DNA of 64,000 nucleotides, taken from NCBI RefSeq assembly GCF_943192905.1, contig NZ_CALPCC010000008.1:1-64000 (forward strand), in the 5' to 3' direction. Position numbers and translations under genes: made by a program. The DNA comes from Adlercreutzia murintestinalis. GTDB lineage: Bacteria; Actinomycetota; Coriobacteriia; Coriobacteriales; Eggerthellaceae. Shown here in pieces: positions 11,366 through 22,964 of the stretch. The first letter of the stretch is position 1; every line of letters begins with the position of its first letter. The notes under the pieces were generated by a model. The model was not told where the DNA came from. It saw only the letters and a program-made list of their open reading frames with translations, and did not search any database.

Positions 11366-11830
11366 TCAGGCCATGGCGCGCATCAGGTTCACCATCTCAA
11401 TGGCACCTTCGGCGCATTCGCTTCCCTTGTTGCCCGCCTTGCTCCCCGCACGCTCAATGGCCTGCTCGATGGTATCGGTGGTGATAACGCCGAACATCAC
11501 CGGCACACCAGCCTGCAAGGATACCTGGGCAATGCCCTTGCTCACCTCGGCGCACACGTAGTCGTAGTGCGTGGTGGCGCCACGAATGACCGCACCCAGG
11601 CAGATGACCGCATCATAGCGGCCGCTCTGTGCCATCTTCTGCGCTGCAAGGGGTATTTCAAAAGCGCCAGGCACCCAGGCAACGTCAATATCCTCCGCTG
11701 CAACCTGATGGCGCATGAGCGCATCTTGAGCTCCACTGAGCAGTCGCGCGGTGATGAAATCATTGAAACGGCTGGCAACGATACCGAAACGCGCACCCTT
11801 CGCAACCAGCTCACCTTGGAACACCGTCAT
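11366..11830 (-). CDS. ribH: 6,7-dimethyl-8-ribityllumazine synthase
   Basis: Condenses 5-amino-6-ribitylamino-uracil with 3,4-dihydroxy-2-butanone 4-phosphate to give the riboflavin precursor lumazine. The 154 residues are typical for the capsid-forming enzyme. Visible motifs are RFNDFI near the N-terminus, [25 protein letters not shown] (substrate loop with the catalytic His) and [16 protein letters not shown]. It follows ribE by 15 bp with an AAAGGCGG Shine-Dalgarno. No ribBA is present in the window, so the butanone phosphate must come from a gene elsewhere. Confidence 0.97.
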
Positions 11831-11845
11831 GTTCGCCGCCTTTCG

Positions 11846-12481
11846 TTAGAAACCGTTTTGGACCAAAAAATCCATCGTGATGCCTGAGGATTCTTGTGCG
11901 CCCATCAACTTCTCGATGTATTTTCCTATGATATCGCACTCCACGTTGAGCGCGTCACCAACCCGCTTATCGCACAGGTTCGTATGCGCGAAGGTGTGCG
12001 GGATGACCGAGACCTCGAACGTGGCGGCATCGACCGCGGTCACGGTCAAACTGATGCCGTCAAGAGCCACCGACCCTTTTTCCACGATCAGCGGCGTGAG
12101 ATGCGCAGCATCGGCGATGCGAATGCGCACCGCGTTGTCGTCGTGCGCAAACGATGCGATGCGCGCGGTGCCGTCAATGTGACCCGAAACCAAATGCCCG
12201 CCAAGCCGGTCGGACAGGCGCAGCGCCCGTTCCAGATTCACGGGGCTGCCCGGACGCAGCTGCCCCAGATCGGTGCGGGTCAACGTTTCGGGCATGGCGT
12301 CGGCCATAAATCCGCTCGCTGACAGATCGGTCACCGTGAGGCAGACGCCGTTCACGCTGATGCTGTCGCCCAGCTTCGTGCCCTCGACCACCGTGGATGC
12401 CTTGAGCGCGATCGTAGCTGAGCGCGCGCCGGGCGTGATGCGCTCAACGCTGCCGACCTCTTCTACGATACCGGTGAACAT
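11846..12481 (-). CDS. ribE: Riboflavin synthase, alpha chain
   Basis: Dismutates two lumazine molecules to riboflavin plus a pyrimidine that is recycled. The 211 residues hold two repeated lumazine-binding barrels. Each opens with a matching motif: MFTGIVEEVG at the N-terminus and HLVSGHIDGTA at about residue 100. GDSISVNGVCLTV and KGSVALDGISLTV are the duplicated strand pairs. Its start lies 19 bp inside the end of ribD, pointing to translational coupling. It is the middle gene of ribD-ribE-ribH. Confidence 0.96.
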   Translation of the reverse strand: MFTGIVEEVGSVERITPGARSATIALKASTVVEGTKLGDSISVNGVCLTVTDLSASGFMADAMPETLTRTDLGQLRPGSPVNLERALRLSDRLGGHLVSGHIDGTARIASFAHDDNAVRIRIADAAHLTPLIVEKGSVALDGISLTVTAVDAATFEVSVIPHTFAHTNLCDKRVGDALNVECDIIGKYIEKLMGAQESSGITMDFLVQNGF

Positions 12482-13608
12482 GGCTCATCCTCGTTTCCTG
12501 ACGTATACCGCACATCGCCCTCGATCAGGATATCATCCCCTAAGGCCGTCGTCTGCGCGTTGACAAGCGACGCGCATGCCGATGGCTCAGCCACGCCGCG
12601 GCCCGCAAGAGGACCAGGGGCCGAAGCGCCGCCGAACAGCTTAGGCGCAAGGTATGCCTGCACCCGATCGATCAAGTGCGCATCGAAGAGAGCACCCAAA
12701 AGCACCGGTCCACCCTCTACGATCACGCTGGAAATACCACGCTTTCCCAATGCGTCCACCAACTGCGGCAGCGGCACATGATCATCAGGAGTTACCGGCA
12801 ATGCAAGCACCTCGCAACCCGCCTGTTCATAAGGCGCCAAGCGCGTCGTGTCGCTCGCGCCTCCCACGATGAGCGTGGGGTGCTCGTGCGCGGTTCGCAC
12901 GAGCTGGCTTGTGAGCGGCGTGCGCATGTGCGTGTCGCAGACGATGCGCATCGGCTGATGAGCGCCTTCCACCCCGCGCACGGTCAGCGCAGGGTCATCG
13001 GCGAGCACCGTGCCCACTCCAACCAGAATGGCGGCGGCGCGGGCACGATCCTCATGCACGCGCCCGCGCGCGTCCGCGCCCGTGATCCACCGGGATGCGC
13101 CCGTGCGCGTAGCCACCTTGCCATCCAACGTCATGGCATATTTCGCAACAACCAACGGGCGTCCCGTTGTGATGAAGTGGAAGAAGGCGCGGTTCAGTGC
13201 ATCACATTCCGCGCGCATCACGCCTTCGTCCACCCGAATGTCAGCGTGCCGCAATCGCGCGATGCCTTTGCCAGCCACCAAGGGGTTTGGGTCGGCCGAC
13301 CCGACCACCACGCGCGCCACGCCCGCCTCGATGAGCGCATCACAGCACGGCGGCTGCTTACCGGTGTGCGCACAGGGCTCAAGCGTGACGTACGCAGTGG
13401 CGCCAGCCGGATCAATACCGGCACGCTCGCAGGCGACCAGCGCCTCGCGCTCGGCATGGGGCGCACCATAGCAGGTGTGCCACCCTTCGCCGAGCACCTG
13501 ACCATCGCGCACGATAACGCAGCCGACCTGCGGGTTCGGCGCGACCCATCCACCTCCGCGCGCCGCGAGTTCAAGCGCGCGAGCCATATAGTCGGCATCC
13601 GAGAACAC
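12463..13608 (-). CDS. ribD: Bifunctional riboflavin deaminase/reductase RibD
   Basis: Carries out the deamination and NADPH-dependent side-chain reduction steps of riboflavin synthesis in one 381-residue chain. The N-terminal zinc deaminase shows HAEREAL and PCAHTGKQPPCCDAL, with metal-binding His and Cys residues. The C-terminal reductase begins near RPLVVAKYAMTLDGK and contains TGADARGRVHEDRA. The start is GTG at 13608, one base after the DUF362 stop (TAGcGTG); it gives the usual DADYMARALELA opening. No FMN riboswitch can fit upstream because the DUF362 gene abuts it, so control must come from the DUF362 promoter or an internal one. Confidence 0.96.
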   Translation of the reverse strand: MFSDADYMARALELAARGGGWVAPNPQVGCVIVRDGQVLGEGWHTCYGAPHAEREALVACERAGIDPAGATAYVTLEPCAHTGKQPPCCDALIEAGVARVVVGSADPNPLVAGKGIARLRHADIRVDEGVMRAECDALNRAFFHFITTGRPLVVAKYAMTLDGKVATRTGASRWITGADARGRVHEDRARAAAILVGVGTVLADDPALTVRGVEGAHQPMRIVCDTHMRTPLTSQLVRTAHEHPTLIVGGASDTTRLAPYEQAGCEVLALPVTPDDHVPLPQLVDALGKRGISSVIVEGGPVLLGALFDAHLIDRVQAYLAPKLFGGASAPGPLAGRGVAEPSACASLVNAQTTALGDDILIEGDVRYTSGNEDEPCSPVS

Positions 13609-14603: not shown

Positions 14604-15614
14604 GTGAGAATCAACGCTTTGAAGGCGATGGTCGTGAGCGCATGCGCTGCCCTCGCGCTCGCCAGTTGTGTAGGATGCTCGACCCCCGCATCGACACCGA
14701 GCGAAACCGAAGCCGCCGTCGTTCGCGTCGGCACCATGCCCACCGAAGATATCCTGCCTTTATGGGTGGCACAAGACAGTAACATGGCTGCCGCCGATGG
14801 CACCACTGTTGAGGTGGTTCCCTTCGATTCCGCCCAGGCGCTTTCCGCCGCCATCACCGCAGGCGAGGTGGATATGGCCATGACCGATATCATGCGCGCA
14901 GCCAAGCTGACCGAGAGCGGCACCGCCGTCGATCTGGAATGGGTGACGCTGGGCGAGATGGCGAGCCAGGGCGTGTTCGGCATCTTGGCGCCCGCCGATG
15001 CGCCATACAGCACGCTTCAAGAAATGGCCGCCTATGCTGCCGATTCCGCGAGCGCCGATCTGCACGGCGTTGGCGTGGGAGCGAACACGGTGCCCGAATA
15101 CGTGTTCAACATGCTCTGCGCCGAAGCGGACGTGACCATACCCTCGGAGGAAGTTGCCAGCCTGCCCGAGCGCTACGGCCTGGTCGCCTCCGGGCAGCTG
15201 ATGGGCGCGGCGCTTCCGGCCCCCCTGCTGGCCCTTGGTGAGGCGAACGGCATGAAGGTCATTGCTGACGATTCGCAAGGCAGCAACATCTCGCAATCGG
15301 TCATGGTGGCGCGCGCCGAGTGGGCCGCCGAAAACGAGCAGGCTGTGCTCGATGTGGCCGAGATCTGGGATGGCGCGGTGAAGCTTTTGACCGACGACCC
15401 TGAGGCGTATCACGATATCTTGGTGACCAACGCCAATCTGAACGAGACCATCGCGGAGAGCTATCCTATCAGCAGCTACCCCAACGCGCTGAGCAACGGA
15501 GCGCTGGTGCATCCGAGCGATACGATGGTGCAGCCCGTGCTCGATTGGATGAGGTCACGCGGGTATGGCGGCGCTGTCTCCTATGATGCAGCCACAGGAG
15601 CTATGAGCCTGTAG
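14604..15614 (+). CDS. ABC transporter substrate-binding lipoprotein (NMT1/THI5, SsuA/TauA-like)
   Basis: Extracytoplasmic solute-binding protein of 336 residues, first gene of the plus-strand hydrogenase/transport region. GTG at 14604 was chosen because TAGGAG lies 8 bases upstream and it opens a clean lipoprotein signal peptide with lipobox LASC. The mature part begins with the class's opening strand VVRVGTMPTEDILPLWVA. A helix-strand pattern follows, including AALSAAITAGEVDMAMTDI-type lobes and KVIADDSQGSN. NMT1-like proteins bind small anions or pyrimidines (sulfonates, nitrate, HMP); the ligand here cannot be read from the sequence. A permease follows 6 bp downstream, but no ATPase is adjacent. 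Confidence 0.85.
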   Translation: MRINALKAMVVSACAALALASCVGCSTPASTPSETEAAVVRVGTMPTEDILPLWVAQDSNMAAADGTTVEVVPFDSAQALSAAITAGEVDMAMTDIMRAAKLTESGTAVDLEWVTLGEMASQGVFGILAPADAPYSTLQEMAAYAADSASADLHGVGVGANTVPEYVFNMLCAEADVTIPSEEVASLPERYGLVASGQLMGAALPAPLLALGEANGMKVIADDSQGSNISQSVMVARAEWAAENEQAVLDVAEIWDGAVKLLTDDPEAYHDILVTNANLNETIAESYPISSYPNALSNGALVHPSDTMVQPVLDWMRSRGYGGAVSYDAATGAMSL

Positions 15615-15620
15615 GCGCAC

Positions 15621-16352
15621 ATGGGCAAGGCGGTCGGATACATCTGGGGAACCCTGCTGGTCATCGCCGTGTGGTGGACGCTCGCGGCGGCCATCGGTTC
15701 CCCTGCGCTGCCCACCCCGGCCGCTACCGTACCGGTGTTGATCGCTCAATGCGGAGCCATCATGCCGGAGTTTTTGCTGAGCTTAGAGCGCATTTTAGTG
15801 GCCATGCTGATCGGCACGCTCATTGGCGCTCCCCTTGGTCTGGCGCTTGGACGCTCGCGACGCGCCGACCTCATCTTGGGCCCTGCGCTCTACATTCTCT
15901 ACCCTCTGCCCAAGATCGTGCTTCTGCCCATCCTGTTCGTGCTGCTCGGCATTGGGGGCGAGGCGAAAGTGACCCTCATTGCCATTGCTGTGTTCTTCCA
16001 GATGGTGGTCACCATGCGCGATGCCGCCCGTGCCATCCCTGAAACAGCCGTGGAATCCATGCGCAGCTTGGGCGCGGGGCGGCTGAGCACCTTCGCGCAC
16101 TTGATCGTGCCCGCCTCGCTGCCGTCGCTGTTCACCGCGTTGCGCATCACCACCGGAACGGCCGTGGCCATCCTGTTCATCGCTGAATCTATGGCGGGCA
16201 GCACCGGGCTTGGCTACTTTATCATGCATTCATGGTCGCTTCTCGAATACGCGCGCATGTTCGCGGGCATCATCGCCTTCGCCGTGATGGGCGTGCTGAT
16301 CTATGAGGCCTTCGATGTAGCTGAGCGGCGTTTCAGCACGTGGCGCAGCTAG
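15621..16352 (+). CDS. ABC importer permease (NitT/TauT/SsuC-like)
   Basis: A 243-residue inner-membrane permease with about six transmembrane helices. The cytoplasmic EAA loop, ESMRSLGAGRLSTFAHLIVP, is where an ATPase docks. The conserved LPKIVLLPILFVLLGIGGEAKV stretch is typical of the SsuC/TauC group (PF00528). It partners the binding lipoprotein immediately upstream. No ATP-binding subunit follows, because the next features are a tRNA gene and the hydrogenase operon. The nearest candidate ATPase is the one fused to a second permease at 22.3-22.96 kb (inference). Confidence 0.88.
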   Translation: MGKAVGYIWGTLLVIAVWWTLAAAIGSPALPTPAATVPVLIAQCGAIMPEFLLSLERILVAMLIGTLIGAPLGLALGRSRRADLILGPALYILYPLPKIVLLPILFVLLGIGGEAKVTLIAIAVFFQMVVTMRDAARAIPETAVESMRSLGAGRLSTFAHLIVPASLPSLFTALRITTGTAVAILFIAESMAGSTGLGYFIMHSWSLLEYARMFAGIIAFAVMGVLIYEAFDVAERRFSTWRS

Positions 16353-16488
16353 ACGAGCGAAACGCAGCATCCGCGCGACCCGGCGCAACGACCCAACGTG
16401 CAACCTAACACCGCATTCCAGCACCGCGACCGATACGATCCTCCTCCCCTCTCTCAAACCCCATCTTGGGCCCAGCCTAAAACCTCGA

Positions 16489-16516
16489 TTGCAGCGCCGC
16501 GTCGTTGCGCTATAAT
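16489..16516 (+). promoter_or_regulatory. Promoter of tRNA-Ala
   Basis: A -35 TTGCAG (16489-16494) and a perfect -10 TATAAT (16511-16516) are separated by 16 bp. The -10 ends 28 bases before the mature tRNA. Confidence 0.75.
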
Positions 16517-16544
16517 AGTTCGGCGCGGCAACAGCCGCATCCAT

Positions 16545-16620
16545 GGGGCATTAGCTCAGCTGGGAGAGCGCGTGGTTCGCAATCACGAGGTCAGGGGTTC
16601 GATCCCCCTATGCTCCACCA
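16545..16620 (+). tRNA. tRNA-Ala(CGC)
   Basis: A 76-base cloverleaf with encoded CCA. The acceptor GGGGCAT pairs with ATGCTCC and includes the G3-U70 wobble that identifies alanine tRNAs. The D arm is GCTC...GAGC, the anticodon loop TTCGCAA gives CGC (reads GCG), and the T arm is AGGGG-TTCGATC-CCCCT. It stands between the first ABC module and the hydrogenase operon, with its own promoter and terminator. Confidence 0.97.
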
Positions 16621-16628
16621 TGAATTTG

Positions 16629-16653
16629 AGAGCCGGTACACTCGGCTCTTTTT
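16629..16653 (+). terminator. Terminator of tRNA-Ala
   Basis: A 7-bp perfect stem AGAGCCG / CGGCTCT with a 7-base loop runs straight into a T-tract, 9 bases after the tRNA CCA. Confidence 0.85.
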
Positions 16654-16875
16654 CATTCCTGCACGGTTTGCAGGGAATCGAACCACAAGGTGCTCTTTAC
16701 CCGCATACAACGCGCGGGGCACCCTGCGGGCACGGCTCGGAACTCATAAGATTTCTCCCTATCGCCTAATCGTTATCACATCCGAAACATTCCTCGCTCA
16801 TACTTGACGCATTCGTATTCGGAACTGCCGCGCGCGAACCTTTGCGGCATCGATGCTTTCCGATGAAGGAGAACC

Positions 16876-18708
16876 ATGCCACGTCTCGTACTAGAAAGCC
16901 CCACAGCTGCTGAGGCCGAACATGCCCGGCTGGCTAAGAAGGCAGCCGCCATGCTCGCCTCAACCCCCTGCGAGCAATGCCCTGTGGAATACACGGCCGC
17001 GCTGAGCCGTATGTTCTTGGCCGATTCCTGCGGGAAATGCACGCCCTGCCGTGTGGGCCTGCGTGCGTGCTGCGCGAAGCTTGACAGCATCCTCGACGGC
17101 ACGGGTAGCGCGGAGGTGCTGGACGAGCTCCGTGCGACCGCCGAGGTCATGCGCGCCGCATCCGACTGCGCCATCGGCTTCACCGCCGGACGCATGATCC
17201 TTGATGCGCTCGACGGTTTCGCGGAGGACTTCACCAGCCACATCGAAGACGATTCATGCAGCCATCGCGCGCGTGCTCAGGCAACCTGCACGACCACCTG
17301 CCCGGCCCACGTGGATGTGCCCGCCTATATCGCCTGCATCCGCGCTGGACGCTTAGACGATGCGCTGCGCGTCATACGCAACACCAATCCGCTTCCTACC
17401 GTGTGCGGGTACGTATGCGAGCATCCCTGCGAAGCTACCTGCCGACGTGCGCTTGAAGACGCACCGGTCAACATCTGCGGGCTCAAGCGCTATGCTGCCG
17501 ATAATGCCACGTGGAGCCCGGCGCCTGCGCCTCTTCCCGCTACCGGCAAGACCATCGGTATCGTTGGCGGCGGCCCCGCCGGTCTCACCGCTGCCTACTA
17601 TCTGCGTCTCATGGGACACGATGTCACCATCTACGATCAGCGAGAGAAGCTGGGGGGTATGGTGCGCTACGGCATTCCCGACTACCGGCTGCCGCAAGAC
17701 CACCTTGATGCTGATATCGACTTTATCCTGAGCACCGGAATCGCGGTTCGCACCGACTGTGCGGTCGGCACCGATGTTACCTTCGAAGAGCTCATGGATG
17801 CCCACGATGCCATGTTCGTCTCCATCGGCGCGCACGAGAGCAAGAAGCTCGGCTGCGCTGGAGAGGATGCCGTTGGGGTCATGTCAGCCGTTGAGTTCTT
17901 GCTCGCCGCCAGCAGTGGATGCGCGCCCGATTTCAACGGGAAGCGCGTCTGCGTGGTGGGAGGCGGTAACGTGGCCATGGACTGCACGCGCACCGCAAAG
18001 CGCTTGGGAGCGCGCTCGGTCGAGTGCGTCTACCGACGCCGACTCGCAGATATGACAGCCCTTCCCGAAGAGATCGACGAGGCGAAGGCGGAAGGCTGCC
18101 AGATCACGCAGCTCCAAGCGCCCATCGCCATCGAAGTTGACGACCAGGGCGCCGTGTGCGCGCTGATAGTGCAACCGCAGGTCATCGGTGCCATCGGGCG
18201 AGGCGGCCGACCGACTCCCTACGATGCCGACGTGGCGCAACGCACGATCCCCTGCGACGCCATCATCATCGCCATCGGTCAAGCTATTGATTCCGGCGCG
18301 TTCGCAAGCATCGTCCAGACCGAGCGCGGCTGCATCGTGGCGCAGGAGGACGGCGCCATCGCAGGTGCCCCCACCCCCTTGTATGCCGGAGGCGATGCAG
18401 TGAGCGGGCCTTCCACCGTCATCAAGGCGATCGCAGCCGGACGCGTGGCGGCAGCCAATATCGATAACGCGCTTGGCTATACGCACGACGTGTACGACCG
18501 CGTTGACATCCCGCCTGCGCGCTCTGCCGTGGGGCCCTGCGGACGCATCGAGCTCAAAGACGTCATCTCCGCCGATGCGGCGCAGACCTTCGAGATCGCA
18601 AAGCTGGGCATGAGCGCCCAAGAAGCACATCAAGAAGCAAGCCGTTGCCTGCGCTGCGACCATTACGGGTTCGGGGCAACGTGCACTCAGGAGGTAGCAT
18701 CATGGTGA
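16876..18708 (+). CDS. NAD(P)H-dependent flavoprotein: NuoF-type [4Fe-4S] domain fused to GltD-like oxidoreductase
   Basis: A 610-residue redox protein, probably the NAD(P)H-oxidising partner of the hydrogenase encoded just downstream. Residues 1-125 resemble the NuoF C-terminal cluster domain (CGKCTPCRVG, C52/C55/C58, fourth Cys C98). The NuoF FMN and NADH domains are absent. Next comes the GltD-type N-terminal iron-sulfur domain (TCTTTCPAHVDVPAYI, then NPLPTVCGYVCEHPCEATC). An FAD Rossmann loop (IGIVGGGPAGLTAAYYL, about 226-245) and a second dinucleotide loop (VCVVGGGNVAMDC, about 356-368) follow. A CLRCDHYG pair lies at the C-terminus. ATG 16876 has AAGGAG 6 bases upstream. It overlaps hydA by 7 bp, so co-translation is likely. 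Confidence 0.85.
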   Translation: MPRLVLESPTAAEAEHARLAKKAAAMLASTPCEQCPVEYTAALSRMFLADSCGKCTPCRVGLRACCAKLDSILDGTGSAEVLDELRATAEVMRAASDCAIGFTAGRMILDALDGFAEDFTSHIEDDSCSHRARAQATCTTTCPAHVDVPAYIACIRAGRLDDALRVIRNTNPLPTVCGYVCEHPCEATCRRALEDAPVNICGLKRYAADNATWSPAPAPLPATGKTIGIVGGGPAGLTAAYYLRLMGHDVTIYDQREKLGGMVRYGIPDYRLPQDHLDADIDFILSTGIAVRTDCAVGTDVTFEELMDAHDAMFVSIGAHESKKLGCAGEDAVGVMSAVEFLLAASSGCAPDFNGKRVCVVGGGNVAMDCTRTAKRLGARSVECVYRRRLADMTALPEEIDEAKAEGCQITQLQAPIAIEVDDQGAVCALIVQPQVIGAIGRGGRPTPYDADVAQRTIPCDAIIIAIGQAIDSGAFASIVQTERGCIVAQEDGAIAGAPTPLYAGGDAVSGPSTVIKAIAAGRVAAANIDNALGYTHDVYDRVDIPPARSAVGPCGRIELKDVISADAAQTFEIAKLGMSAQEAHQEASRCLRCDHYGFGATCTQEVASW

Positions 18709-20516
18709 ACGTGATCATCGACGGCATCGCGCTCGAGGCAGAGGAAGGCGCCACCATCCTTGAAGCCGCCCAGCGCGCAGGGGCGCAGATTCCCACCTTG
18801 TGCTTCCTCGCCCAACTCAACGACATCGGATCGTGCCGCGTTTGCGTGATTGAGGTGGAAGGCGAGGATCGCCTCGTTGCCTCCTGCAACACCGTGGTGC
18901 GCGAAGGCATGGTCGTGCACACCGACACCGATCAGGTGCGCACCGCACGCACGACCGCCCTTCAGCTGCTGCTCTCTCAACACGACTTGAACTGCGCGTA
19001 CTGCCCGCGCACCGGCACCTGCCGCTTCCAGAAGCTCCTGCTCGATGCGGGGCTCATCGCATGGGATCCATCCGGGCTGTTCGTGACCGAGACGCCATCG
19101 CCCTACGCCAAGCAACTCGTGCAAGGCAAGCGAGCGGCCTGGCCAGCAGAGCGCATCGTACAGCGCGACGAGAACCGATGCATCCACTGCGGTCGATGCA
19201 TCGCGGCGTGCGACCGTCTGGAAGACATCGGAGTCTGGGCGTTCAGAGGCACGGGCAGCCGCTCGACGGTTGGCGTTGCCGACGGCATGAGCATGCGTCA
19301 GGCGGGTTGCGTCTCGTGCGGCCAATGCATCACCCATTGCCCCACCGGTGCCCTCTCCGAGCGCGACGACACCAGCCTGCTGCTCGATGCCATCGCCGAC
19401 CCGGAGCAGACCACGGTCGTGCAGATCGCGCCCGCAACACGAACGTCGTGGGGCGTGGGCCTCGGCGCTGACGATGGAGCGCTTCCCGTTGAGCGCATGG
19501 TAGCCGCCTTAAAGCAGCTTGGCGTTGACTATGTGTTCGACACGTCCCTCGCCGCCGATCTGACCATCATGGAGGAAGGCACCGAACTGCTCGAGGGGCT
19601 CACTAATCGCACTGCATCCGACGATGGCATCACCTGGCCGCTCTTCACGAGCTGCTGCCCAGCATGGGTTCAGCATGCGAAGGATCACCATCCCGATGCG
19701 CTCGCGCACCTCTCCACCTCGAAAAGCCCCATGATGATGCTCGGCGCGGTGATAAAGACCTGGTTCGCTGAGAAGCAGGGGATCAAGCCCGATAACATCT
19801 TCTCGGTCGCGCTCATGCCCTGCACCGCCAAGAAGGCAGAGATCACGCTTCCGATGAACTCCCATCCCGATATCCCCGATATGGATGCAGCGCTCACCAC
19901 GCGCGAGCTCACGCGCATGATCAAGAACGCCGATATCGACGTTGACGGCCTTGAGGACATGCCCCTTGACGACCCGCTGGGCACCTTCACGGGCGCAGGC
20001 GTCATCTTCGGCACCACTGGTGGCGTCATGGAAGCCGCTCTGCGCACTGCGTATTACGTGGCCACCGGACAAACAGCGCCTCCCGACAGCTTCGCCTTCG
20101 CCGTCAGCGAGCATGGCGCTTGGACCGAGGGCACCTTCGATATGAACGGCACGTCAGTGCGCTGTGCGGTCGTGCATGGCCTCTCGAACGTGCATGCGCT
20201 GCTGGAAGCCCTTCGCGCGGGCGTTGTCACCTACGATTTCGTGGAAGTGATGGCGTGTCCTGGCGGATGCGCGGGCGGCGGCGGACAGCCTATCGACGGA
20301 TCGGATTGCGAGCGGGGCCTGCAGCGCGGTCAAACGCTACGCTCGATCGACAAGACCCAGATGCCGCTGCGCTATTCGCATGAGAACCCGCAGATCAAGA
20401 TGCTCTACGACGTATTCTTCGGCAAGCCCTGCTCGGAGCGCGCCCACCATCTGCTGCACACCATCCATCTTCCCCACGACGGCAAAGACGCCACGGCAAA
20501 GGAGGCAACCGCATGA
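18702..20516 (+). CDS. [FeFe]-hydrogenase catalytic subunit
   Basis: A 604-residue [FeFe]-hydrogenase interconverting protons and H2. It has no signal peptide, so it is cytoplasmic. N-terminal plant-type [2Fe-2S] domain (CFLAQLNDIGSCRVC), His/Cys3 cluster domain (HDLNCAYCPRTGTC) and a two-[4Fe-4S] ferredoxin domain (CIHCGRCIAAC; CVSCGQCITHC) precede the H-cluster domain. All three H-cluster motifs are intact: TSCCPAW (about 316), MPCTAKK (about 372) and MACPGGCAGGGGQP (from 517). A small-subunit-like end (SHENPQIKMLY) is fused on. ATG 18702 has AGGAGG 7 bases upstream. The adjacent GltD-like flavoprotein suggests the glutamate-synthase-linked class (HydDB A2, from memory). The maturases HydEFG are not in the window. 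Confidence 0.95.
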   Translation: MVNVIIDGIALEAEEGATILEAAQRAGAQIPTLCFLAQLNDIGSCRVCVIEVEGEDRLVASCNTVVREGMVVHTDTDQVRTARTTALQLLLSQHDLNCAYCPRTGTCRFQKLLLDAGLIAWDPSGLFVTETPSPYAKQLVQGKRAAWPAERIVQRDENRCIHCGRCIAACDRLEDIGVWAFRGTGSRSTVGVADGMSMRQAGCVSCGQCITHCPTGALSERDDTSLLLDAIADPEQTTVVQIAPATRTSWGVGLGADDGALPVERMVAALKQLGVDYVFDTSLAADLTIMEEGTELLEGLTNRTASDDGITWPLFTSCCPAWVQHAKDHHPDALAHLSTSKSPMMMLGAVIKTWFAEKQGIKPDNIFSVALMPCTAKKAEITLPMNSHPDIPDMDAALTTRELTRMIKNADIDVDGLEDMPLDDPLGTFTGAGVIFGTTGGVMEAALRTAYYVATGQTAPPDSFAFAVSEHGAWTEGTFDMNGTSVRCAVVHGLSNVHALLEALRAGVVTYDFVEVMACPGGCAGGGGQPIDGSDCERGLQRGQTLRSIDKTQMPLRYSHENPQIKMLYDVFFGKPCSERAHHLLHTIHLPHDGKDATAKEATA

Positions 20517-21529
20517 CCAGAACATCCATTACGCTTGGCGCCCGGGCGCTCGCGCTCATCCTTGCCGCGGCATGCCTTCTCACCGGGTGCGCATCCACGC
20601 CCGCAGCACCAGAACCCGACAGCACCGCTCCCGTATCCTCTGACGCAGCGGATACCGCCGCTAACGTGCTGCGCATCGGGTCGCTGAAAGGGCCCACCTC
20701 TATCGGGCTCGCCTCCATGATGGCGCAGGACCAAGGTCAGTTCACCATCGCGGCTTCGGCCGACGAGATAGCACCCCAACTCCTTCAAGGCCAGCTCGAT
20801 ATCGCGCTCGTGCCAGCGAATCTGGCCGCCACGCTCTACCAGCGCACGAGCGGCGCCATTCGCGTCATCGACGTCAACACTCTCGGCGTGCTGTATGCCG
20901 TGAGCGCCGCTGAGGTGACGGCGGTCGAGGACCTTCGTGGACGTACGGTATACCTGACCGGGAAAGGGACCGTTCCCGAATACACCGTGCTCGCCCTCTT
21001 GGAGGCCAGCGGTCTGACCACCGAGGACGTGGACCTGCAATTCCGTTCCGAGCCAGCCGAGGTTGCTGCGCTCATCGCTCAAGACCACGAGGCGGTGGGC
21101 ATTCTACCGCAACCCTATGCCACCTCAGCGAGCATGAAAGATGCCGCCCTTAGCGAAAGCATCGACCTGACCGCCGCTTGGGAAGCTGCCACCGGGGGTG
21201 CCCGCGGCAGCCTGATCACCGGCGTGACCATCACCAAAGCAGATACCGTAGAAGCGCAGCCCGAAGCGATCAATGCCTTCTTGAGCCGTCATGAAGCCTC
21301 TGCTGCCATCGCGCAGAACGACCCCGATGCCATCGTTGACCAGGTGGTTTCCCTTGGCATCATCGACAACGCAGAGGTCGCCCGAAAAGCGATCCCGCTC
21401 TGCAATGTTGTCTGCCTGACCGGTGATGAGATGAAGCAGGCCCTTTCGGGCTACCTTGAGACGCTCTACGCGCAGGCTCCCGATGCGGTGGGCGGCGCGC
21501 TGCCCGGGAATGATTTCTACCTTGCCTAA
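20513..21529 (+). CDS. ABC transporter substrate-binding lipoprotein (second, hydrogenase operon)
   Basis: A 338-residue lipoprotein with lipobox LTGC (Cys near residue 24) and a Thr/Ala/Pro linker. An NMT1/THI5-like binding fold follows. Its opening strand is LRIGSLKGPTSIGLASMM, and QLLQGQLDIALVPANLAATLY is the matching second motif. The C-terminal lobe starts near GVTITKADTVEAQPEAI. It overlaps hydA by four bases (ATGA) and is followed by the permease-ATPase fusion, forming a complete importer inside the hydrogenase operon. The binding-site motif differs from the first lipoprotein (GPTSIG against PTEDILPLW), so the ligands need not be the same. Confidence 0.85.
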   Translation: MTRTSITLGARALALILAAACLLTGCASTPAAPEPDSTAPVSSDAADTAANVLRIGSLKGPTSIGLASMMAQDQGQFTIAASADEIAPQLLQGQLDIALVPANLAATLYQRTSGAIRVIDVNTLGVLYAVSAAEVTAVEDLRGRTVYLTGKGTVPEYTVLALLEASGLTTEDVDLQFRSEPAEVAALIAQDHEAVGILPQPYATSASMKDAALSESIDLTAAWEAATGGARGSLITGVTITKADTVEAQPEAINAFLSRHEASAAIAQNDPDAIVDQVVSLGIIDNAEVARKAIPLCNVVCLTGDEMKQALSGYLETLYAQAPDAVGGALPGNDFYLA

Positions 21530-21536
21530 CGTCACC

Positions 21537-22964
21537 ATGCCCGATCATGGTGCACCGGAAGAGCACGCACGACCACGGTCTTCTCGCTCTGCGGGCGGAT
21601 TCGCCTTAGGCGCCCTCTTTTGGATAGCACTCTGGTGCGTCGTCGCCAGCATCATCGGCAACGACCTGCTTTTCGCGGATCCATGGGCCGTGCTCGCATC
21701 GCTTGGGGAAAGCGTCGCACAGCCATCGTTTTGGATAGCCATCGGGAACACGGCAGCGCGCATCATCGGCATTGGCGCGCTTTCGGGCCTTTGCGGTCTC
21801 ATCCTCGGATCGCTCGGACATCGCTTCATGCTCGTCCATCAACTCTTCGCGCCGCTGTTGCACGTGATGAAGAGCGCACCGGTCGCCTGCATCGTCGTGA
21901 TCGTGCTCGTCATGTGGGGAGCACAGGGGGCATTCGCCACCATCGTCGCCTTCGTCGCCTTCCCGCCGTTCTACGTTGCCATTCAACAGGCACTCGAAGC
22001 GCGTCCGCGGCGCACCGAAGAGGCGCTGAAGCTGCTCGGGGTAAGCCGCTGGAAGATATTCTGCGGCTGCATATGGCCCGCCGCGCTGCCTTTTTTCACC
22101 TCTGCGAGCAAGACCGCCGTTGCGCTCGCATGGCGGGCGGGCATCACCGCCGAGTTGCTTTGCCTGCCACTCGGCTCGATCGGTGCCGAGGTGTACACCT
22201 CGAAGCTGACGCTTGACAGCGCAGGACTGCTCGCATGGACCATCACCGTGATGCTTCTCAGCTGGCTCAATGAGCGGATCGTGCTCGCAGCGCTGCGCTG
22301 TTCAGAAGGGCTCGCAACATGGGCGCTCAACGGCACGCGCGCGCATCTGCCCACCTCCTCCCCCCGCTCCCTTCCCGCGCCAACGGGCGCGACCCCGGTA
22401 TCGCTCATCCTTGAAGATGTGCACAAGGCATACGGGGACACGAGCGTTCTTGCGGGCTTCTCTCTTGGCGTCTCCCTAGGCGAGCGGATTTGCCTGATGG
22501 CGCCCACCGGCGAGGGCAAGAGCACCGCGCTCGGCATGCTCGCGCGTCTGTGCACGCCCGATGCAGGACGCGCGCATGCGCCCGCGCGCATCGGCATCGT
22601 CATGCAGGACCCCACGCTTCTGGAAAACCTCAGCGCATTCCAAAACGTTGCTCTTGCCGCAGGAAAGCGCATGAGCGCTGATCGCATTCGCGCACAGCTC
22701 GCATCTCTGATCGGCGCTGATGCTCTTGACCGAGCAGCATCTGAGCTATCCGGCGGCACAAAGCGCCTGACCGAACTGGTGCGTGCGCTGCTCTCGGACG
22801 GACAAGCGATCGTGCTCGACGAGCCATTCACCGGTCTTGATCCCGCGCGTCGCGAAGCGGTCTGCGCTTTCATCAAGGACGCGCTCGATGGCAGGCCCCT
22901 CATCGTTGCCACGCATGACCCCACCGACGCCGCCTTGCTTGATGCCGCTATCGTGCGCCTCTGA
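21537..22964 (+). CDS. ABC importer permease-ATPase fusion
   Basis: One 475-residue chain joining a NitT/TauT-like permease (about residues 20-250) to an ABC ATPase (about 285-475). The permease part has about six helices and the docking loop EEALKLLGVSRWKIFCGCIWP. The ATPase part shows Walker A APTGEGKST (about 322, with Ala for the usual first Gly), Q-loop VMQDPTLLENLSAFQNV, signature LSGGTKRL (Thr for Gln), Walker B IVLDEP and switch His ATHDP. The start is uncertain. 21537 follows the lipoprotein stop by 7 bp, and in-frame ATGs at 21510 and 21483 overlap it; none has a strong Shine-Dalgarno. Import permeases are normally separate from their ATPases. Confidence 0.85.
   Translation: MPDHGAPEEHARPRSSRSAGGFALGALFWIALWCVVASIIGNDLLFADPWAVLASLGESVAQPSFWIAIGNTAARIIGIGALSGLCGLILGSLGHRFMLVHQLFAPLLHVMKSAPVACIVVIVLVMWGAQGAFATIVAFVAFPPFYVAIQQALEARPRRTEEALKLLGVSRWKIFCGCIWPAALPFFTSASKTAVALAWRAGITAELLCLPLGSIGAEVYTSKLTLDSAGLLAWTITVMLLSWLNERIVLAALRCSEGLATWALNGTRAHLPTSSPRSLPAPTGATPVSLILEDVHKAYGDTSVLAGFSLGVSLGERICLMAPTGEGKSTALGMLARLCTPDAGRAHAPARIGIVMQDPTLLENLSAFQNVALAAGKRMSADRIRAQLASLIGADALDRAASELSGGTKRLTELVRALLSDGQAIVLDEPFTGLDPARREAVCAFIKDALDGRPLIVATHDPTDAALLDAAIVRL

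Follow-up and report, generated by a model that had tools for sequence, protein, structure and literature searches.

The maturases HydE, HydF and HydG (HydEFG) are treated as a dedicated set that is needed for an active [FeFe]-hydrogenase. The protists Giardia and Entamoeba have [FeFe]-hydrogenase without maturases, and we know of no importer for parts of the H-cluster, the active site of the enzyme, in these organisms. Moreover, living cells that are supplied with the synthetic complex [Fe2(adt)(CO)4(CN)2]2- can activate apo-hydrogenase in the absence of HydEFG (PMC6984386). Here, we analysed a stretch of 64,000 nucleotides from Adlercreutzia murintestinalis (assembly GCF_943192905.1, contig NZ_CALPCC010000008.1, positions 1 to 64,000), hereafter referred to as the window. 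It lies on contig C8 of the host genome, G000, which is a 2.04-Mb draft that is 91% complete. By the genes studied here, the closest named relatives of the host are Eggerthellaceae, among them Adlercreutzia. The window contains an operon for a NuoF/GltD-like flavoprotein, an [FeFe]-hydrogenase (HYD), a substrate-binding lipoprotein (SBP2) and a fused permease-ATPase (PERM2-ATP2). We propose, with moderate confidence, that SBP2-PERM2-ATP2 is an ATP-binding cassette (ABC) importer for salvage of the H-cluster cofactor, which replaces HydE, HydF and HydG.

Hidden Markov model searches of the host genome found no HydE and no HydG, and no HydF above the cut-off. For HydE and HydG, relatives with 99%-complete genomes and one-contig genomes agree with the host. 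In the window and in many relatives, the gene order is NuoF/GltD - HYD - SBP2 - PERM2 - ATP2. In two members of the window's family, G018 (locus L176) and G022 (L177), the order is instead NuoF/GltD - HYD - HydE - HydG - HydF. An earlier note on this DNA had regarded a consistent lack of the ABC genes in homologous hydrogenase operons as a point against a link between importer and hydrogenase. Operons without them were found in some relatives, but those of G018 and G022 carry hydE-hydG-hydF in the place of the importer, an exchange that explains the link and does not refute it. The one-contig genome G330 has both kinds of operon, one with the importer (L203) and one with the maturases behind the hydrogenase (L204). 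In a tree of 33 such hydrogenases, importer and maturase operons interleave, even inside one strongly supported seven-member clade, so that, as far as the sequences tell, the exchange of importer and maturases probably happened more than once. The neighbourhood comparison that the earlier note had suggested, which looks for NMT1-like binding proteins near hydrogenases, shows that the co-location and the gene order of the operon recur in many genera of two phyla; the arrangement is therefore not due to chance.

An initial panel comprised 41 genomes, of which 18 have a hydrogenase. Four of these have HydG and lack SBP2, while each of the other 14 lacks HydG and has an SBP2 match; HydF exceeded the cut-off in three genomes only, all of them among the four with HydG. 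The main survey comprised 397 genomes of the order Coriobacteriales, some of its counts being from drafts, and SBP2 of the window's subfamily was called at E<=1e-100. SBP2 is present in 202 of the 397 genomes, and 198 of the 202 (98%) also have the hydrogenase. It is found in 198 of 271 hydrogenase-positive genomes compared with 4 of 126 hydrogenase-negative ones (p=2e-44). Among hydrogenase-positive genomes, SBP2 occurs in 166 of the 179 that lack both HydE and HydG, compared with 32 of the 92 that have a maturase (odds ratio 0.04, p=6e-24). Because the genomes are related, the comparison was also stratified by genus, which gave an odds ratio of 0.10 (p=2e-4) over nine informative genera. In genus g61, eight genomes have only the importer and six only the maturases, and none has both or neither. 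Among the 82 genera that bear the hydrogenase, 51 have neither HydE nor HydG in any of their sampled hydrogenase-positive genomes, and the importer is present in 47 of these 51. Gaps in draft genomes are rejected as the reason for the missing HydE and HydG, because eleven one-contig genomes have the importer and lack both (G098, G101, G103, G110, G126, G130, G133, G134, G161, G185 and G220). The distribution is that of cofactor salvage: the importer is found in genomes that encode the cofactor-using enzyme but lack the genes to make the cofactor.

We consider it highly probable that the importer functionally substitutes for HydEFG. Since all three maturases are missing from the host, the imported species would, on the simplest reading, have to be the [2Fe] subcluster or one that inserts directly, and it is reasonably likely that the ligand of the importer is this subcluster or a directly insertable precursor. 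In the proposed mechanism, SBP2 would capture the [2Fe] subcluster, or a late precursor of it, released by neighbouring H2-metabolising microbes. PERM2-ATP2 would then carry the captured cofactor into the cell, a direction suggested by the presence of a binding protein. The cofactor would insert, without HydF, into apo-hydrogenase that already bears its [4Fe-4S] cluster, giving the active H-cluster, and the NuoF/GltD subunit would couple the hydrogenase to NAD(P)(H). We lean slightly towards the broader view that auxotrophy for the [2Fe] cofactor is common in gut Coriobacteriia and occurs in part of the Lachnospiraceae. Such bacteria would have lost HydEFG and would take up the finished cofactor, produced by other microbes, through a dedicated ABC transporter, so that the H-cluster would be shared in the community as cobamides are. 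The importer could also bring a simpler precursor, such as a mononuclear Fe-CO-CN unit, a source of CN or CO, or the dithiolate ligand, with unknown enzymes other than HydE, HydF and HydG completing the H-cluster. The same co-occurrence data fit this alternative, and some relatives have HydE and HydF without HydG, which hints at the existence of incomplete or different pathways. However, with HydE, HydF and HydG all missing in the host it needs additional unknown assembly enzymes, and clustering of the neighbouring genes showed no other gene common to the importer operons; we regard it as unlikely.

HYD is the sole [FeFe]-hydrogenase copy in the host genome. It belongs to group A according to TIGR02512 (434 bits, cut-off 406), while its score of 673 bits against NF040763, the NADH-dependent group A6, is below the cut-off of 765. 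Among solved structures, iron hydrogenase 1 and the HydA subunits of electron-bifurcating enzymes align with HYD over its full length (PDB entries 8a6t, 7q4v and 9rj9; E=8e-142 for 8a6t). The H-cluster ligand motifs TSCCPAW, MPCTAKKAE and EVMACPGGCAGGGG are all intact, and the protein looks able to hold an H-cluster. The NuoF/GltD gene is found upstream of the hydrogenase in the maturase-type operons L176 and L177 too, and its product is a putative electron-transfer partner of HYD.

The importer is also linked to other hydrogenases. A scan of named genomes gave at least 574 confirmed relatives of SBP2, of which the best 80, mostly from Lachnospiraceae and Coriobacteriia, were analysed. Among these 80, the hydrogenases beside the SBP2 module belong to group A, together with NuoF/GltD, to the monomeric group B1 (L094; TIGR04105, 598 bits) and to a group C type with a putative sensory role, which is accompanied by a SpoIIE phosphatase or an MCP domain. 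Group B members also occur elsewhere in genomes G033 and G036 (612-613 bits, TIGR04105). A TM1266-like small protein lies beside the module in 12 loci. The links to group B and C hydrogenases and to this small protein were seen in Lachnospiraceae, and the module and its hydrogenase or TM1266-like neighbours are found in many different arrangements. The evident common feature of the importer-linked hydrogenases of groups A, B and C is the H-cluster, and the module is almost certainly linked to it. It is improbable that the hydrogenase homologue has lost its [2Fe] subcluster and acts as an iron-sulfur redox protein, with the importer supplying its new substrate. A genome without maturases would fit such a loss, but the three ligand motifs are kept in the importer-adjacent hydrogenases that were compared, in which the few substitutions are at non-ligand positions, and the link to the importer extends over all three groups, which have only the H-cluster as an evident common feature.

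In L111 (6991-8931), the gene directly 5' of the SBP2 module encodes a fusion of an [FeFe]-hydrogenase domain with a methyl-accepting chemotaxis signalling domain; similar genes are found in L126 and L132. The TM1266-like protein of L111 has no NCBIfam match at a strict E-value and was named by its similarity to TM1266-like genes beside hydE. Many Lachnospiraceae loci lie near tig-clpPX, a neighbourhood that was set aside since it looks like a common chromosomal context.

An NMT1 lipoprotein, a BPD_transp_1 permease and an ABC ATPase are encoded together in the operon, which makes the importer one of the NitT/TauT type (NMT1). In the loci examined, PERM2-ATP2 homologues always adjoin SBP2. The AlphaFold2 model of SBP2 has a mean predicted local distance difference test (pLDDT) score of 91.8. 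In a fold search with this model, the nearest solved structure was 3hn0, followed by PqqT, which binds pyrroloquinoline quinone (PQQ), and by binders of taurine and sulfonate, of thiamine, and of N-formyl-4-amino-5-aminomethyl-2-methylpyrimidine (FAMP). The fold group to which the model assigns SBP2 includes binders of ready-made cofactors and precursors, with which SBP2 shares at most 18% identity. Residues Gly60-Pro61-Thr62, Asn103, Asn122-Thr123, Pro155, Glu180, Glu183 and Gln200 are fully or nearly conserved, and Lys59 and Lys151 mostly so; these residues are located in loops at which the ligand cleft is expected. Against TIGR01728, the SsuA family for aliphatic sulfonates, SBP2 scores 51 bits and the upstream binding protein SBP1 35 bits (cut-off 163.5). 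An ordinary nitrate, taurine or sulfonate importer was rejected, as the scores are below the curated cut-offs.

The earlier note had offered three substrates for the importer: an electron acceptor, a metabolite reduced with the flavoprotein, or a precursor of the active site. Only the last fits, because the hydrogenases next to the importer come from groups A, B and C, which share the H-cluster and not the flavoprotein, and because it replaces H-cluster maturases both between genomes and within the operon. Import of an electron acceptor was rejected, as it explains neither the link to the three groups nor the exclusion of maturases. Uptake of a common nutrient, or of an electron acceptor that is consumed with H2, the loss of maturases being a coincidence, recalls the taurine, sulfonates, thiamine precursors and PQQ carried by NMT1-family relatives and the few Coriobacteriia loci that adjoin C1-metabolism genes (judged from translations), but it is very doubtful given that 98% of the SBP2-bearing genomes of the order have the hydrogenase, that maturase and importer exclude each other within genera, and that the importer sits in the operon place of the maturases.

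A paralogous subfamily of binding proteins, with the motif IMGPPSMGL and its own permease and ATPase, was seen in L036, L037, L038 and L041. In L036-L038, it stands beside an ATPase of 1400-1500 amino acids (BcrA/BadF and DUF2229 by Pfam in L036). These binding proteins split off by score and are not enriched with hydrogenase; they are perhaps linked to another ATP-driven reductive activation.

Several observations weigh against cofactor import as a full replacement of HydEFG. We know of no pool of the [2Fe] cofactor that exists outside cells in nature. In the order, 13 hydrogenase-positive genomes lack HydE, HydG and, at the threshold used, the importer. One of these, G016, has a divergent SBP2 (L039), and most of the others are incomplete. 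G191, G218 and G363, however, are nearly complete and are exceptions to the pattern. Conversely, genus g8 has the SBP2 module (L030 and L214 in G009, L213 in G342) and no detectable [FeFe]-hydrogenase, the module being there either a relic or a sign of a second use of the ligand. Importer and maturase occur together in 32 genomes of the order; known salvage systems also co-occur with biosynthesis genes in some genomes. Furthermore, HydE was detected and HydG was not in 34 hydrogenase-positive genomes, of which 12 carry the importer; these genomes suggest that other maturation routes may exist, and a divergent or unknown route is conceivable. In a further set of 35 genomes searched for HydF, 16, mostly Lachnospiraceae, have it. 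It is absent from all seven genomes of this set with the NuoF/GltD-HYD-SBP2 neighbourhood (G041-G047); elsewhere, the importer may supplement the maturases rather than substitute for them.

A further pattern was seen in HydG-less Coriobacteriales loci (L218-L226 and L228-L231) of genomes that have [FeFe]-hydrogenase, HydE and HydF. There, hydF-hydE lies beside NifH-like and nitrogenase-component-1-like genes, often in two sets, together with hypF and hypE and, by translation, hypC and hypD. These loci may represent a route to the Fe-CO-CN unit that replaces HydG. The pattern is not found in the window.

The four-gene operon described in the earlier note, with flavoprotein, hydrogenase, binding lipoprotein and permease-ATPase fusion, is borne out, with the domains as claimed (Table 1). 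Its description as fully overlapping holds for two of the three junctions, with a 7-bp overlap between NuoF/GltD and HYD and a 4-bp ATGA overlap between HYD and SBP2. At the third, it depends on the start codon of PERM2-ATP2: ATG 21510 gives a 20-bp overlap and ATG 21537 a 7-bp gap.

Table 1 Features of the hydrogenase-importer operon and of the region upstream of it, in window positions.
Feature	Position	Strand	Evidence or remark
SBP1 binding lipoprotein	14604-15614		NMT1_2
PERM1 permease	15621-16352		
tRNA-Ala	16545-16620		Between PERM1 and operon
Terminator-like hairpin 3' of tRNA-Ala, upstream operon border	16628..16650	+	Pattern match only
NuoF C-terminal [4Fe-4S] domain / GltD-like FAD/NAD(P) oxidoreductase fusion	16876..18708	+	Pfam NADH_4Fe-4S, Fer4_20, Pyr_redox_2; NCBIfam PRK12771 above cut-off
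HYD, group A [FeFe]-hydrogenase, 604 aa, ATG 18702	18702..20516	+	Fe_hyd_lg_C and Fe_hyd_SSU; TIGR02512
SBP2, NMT1-family substrate-binding lipoprotein, KGPT subfamily, lipobox Cys26	20513..21529	+	Pfam NMT1, 36 bits (cut-off 20.5)
PERM2-ATP2 permease-ATPase fusion, start ATG 21510 or ATG 21537	21510..22964	+	Pfam BPD_transp_1 and ABC_tran

The upstream binding lipoprotein and permease, SBP1 and PERM1, exist as the earlier note had stated and lack a neighbouring ATPase. They lie outside the operon, and the data do not support a single unit made of the upstream and downstream ABC modules. SBP1/PERM1 was rejected as a part of the system, because tRNA-Ala and the hairpin intervene and no match to SBP1 was seen beside other hydrogenases among the loci examined. 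SBP1/PERM1 (14604-16352) is an orphan pair, divergent from a DUF362 gene, and may borrow the ATPase of another importer. A homologue of SBP1 (45% identity) stands alone in locus L043. Further upstream, at 11366-13608, the translations indicate a riboflavin cluster of ribD, ribE and ribH, with no ribBA between ribE and ribH.

If a transporter replaces HydEFG, organometallic active sites would be tradable between microbes. Gut H2 metabolism would then depend on partners, and its prediction from hydA alone would be unsafe. The importer would also provide work on semi-synthetic hydrogenases with a genetically encoded way to bring [2Fe] complexes into cells, and a large orphan binding-protein family (at least 574 confirmed loci) gains a concrete ligand candidate. 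Coriobacteriaceae also have formate hydrogenlyase, and because of this H2 from a pure culture would not be decisive. In a 2025 study of gut H2, Collinsella and Olsenella were tested for H2 in YCFA medium, and a hydrogenase-bearing isolate that gave no H2 is mentioned; its main text has neither the word maturase nor HydE (PMC12578642). Full-text searches of the literature, whose coverage excludes most subscription papers, gave nothing on an importer of components of the H-cluster or on hydrogenases of Coriobacteriia that lack maturases; the papers found deal with maturation and with protists that have few maturases or none.

The closest solved structure to SBP2, in fold and in sequence, is BDI_1369 of Parabacteroides distasonis (3hn0), labelled as a nitrate transport protein. 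It matches the SBP2-family profile with E=3.8e-26, but it is only 24% identical to SBP2 and differs at the positions of Lys59 and Lys151. The cofactor binders of the NMT1/NitT-TauT group, PqqT and those for thiamine and FAMP, share the fold of SBP2 and offer a route to a ready-made cofactor or precursor, while their known ligands are organic and none is tied to hydrogenase. Giardia and Entamoeba resemble the window in having a hydrogenase without HydEFG. The HydE/HydF/HydG machinery serves the same enzyme as the importer and, in G018 and G022, has the same place in the operon. It builds the [2Fe] subcluster inside the cell and inserts it, whereas the window has a transporter and none of the three maturases. 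Semi-synthetic maturation is like our proposal in that a cofactor from outside activates apo-hydrogenase without HydEFG; that procedure is artificial and names no dedicated importer (PMC6984386), whereas the system proposed here has one.

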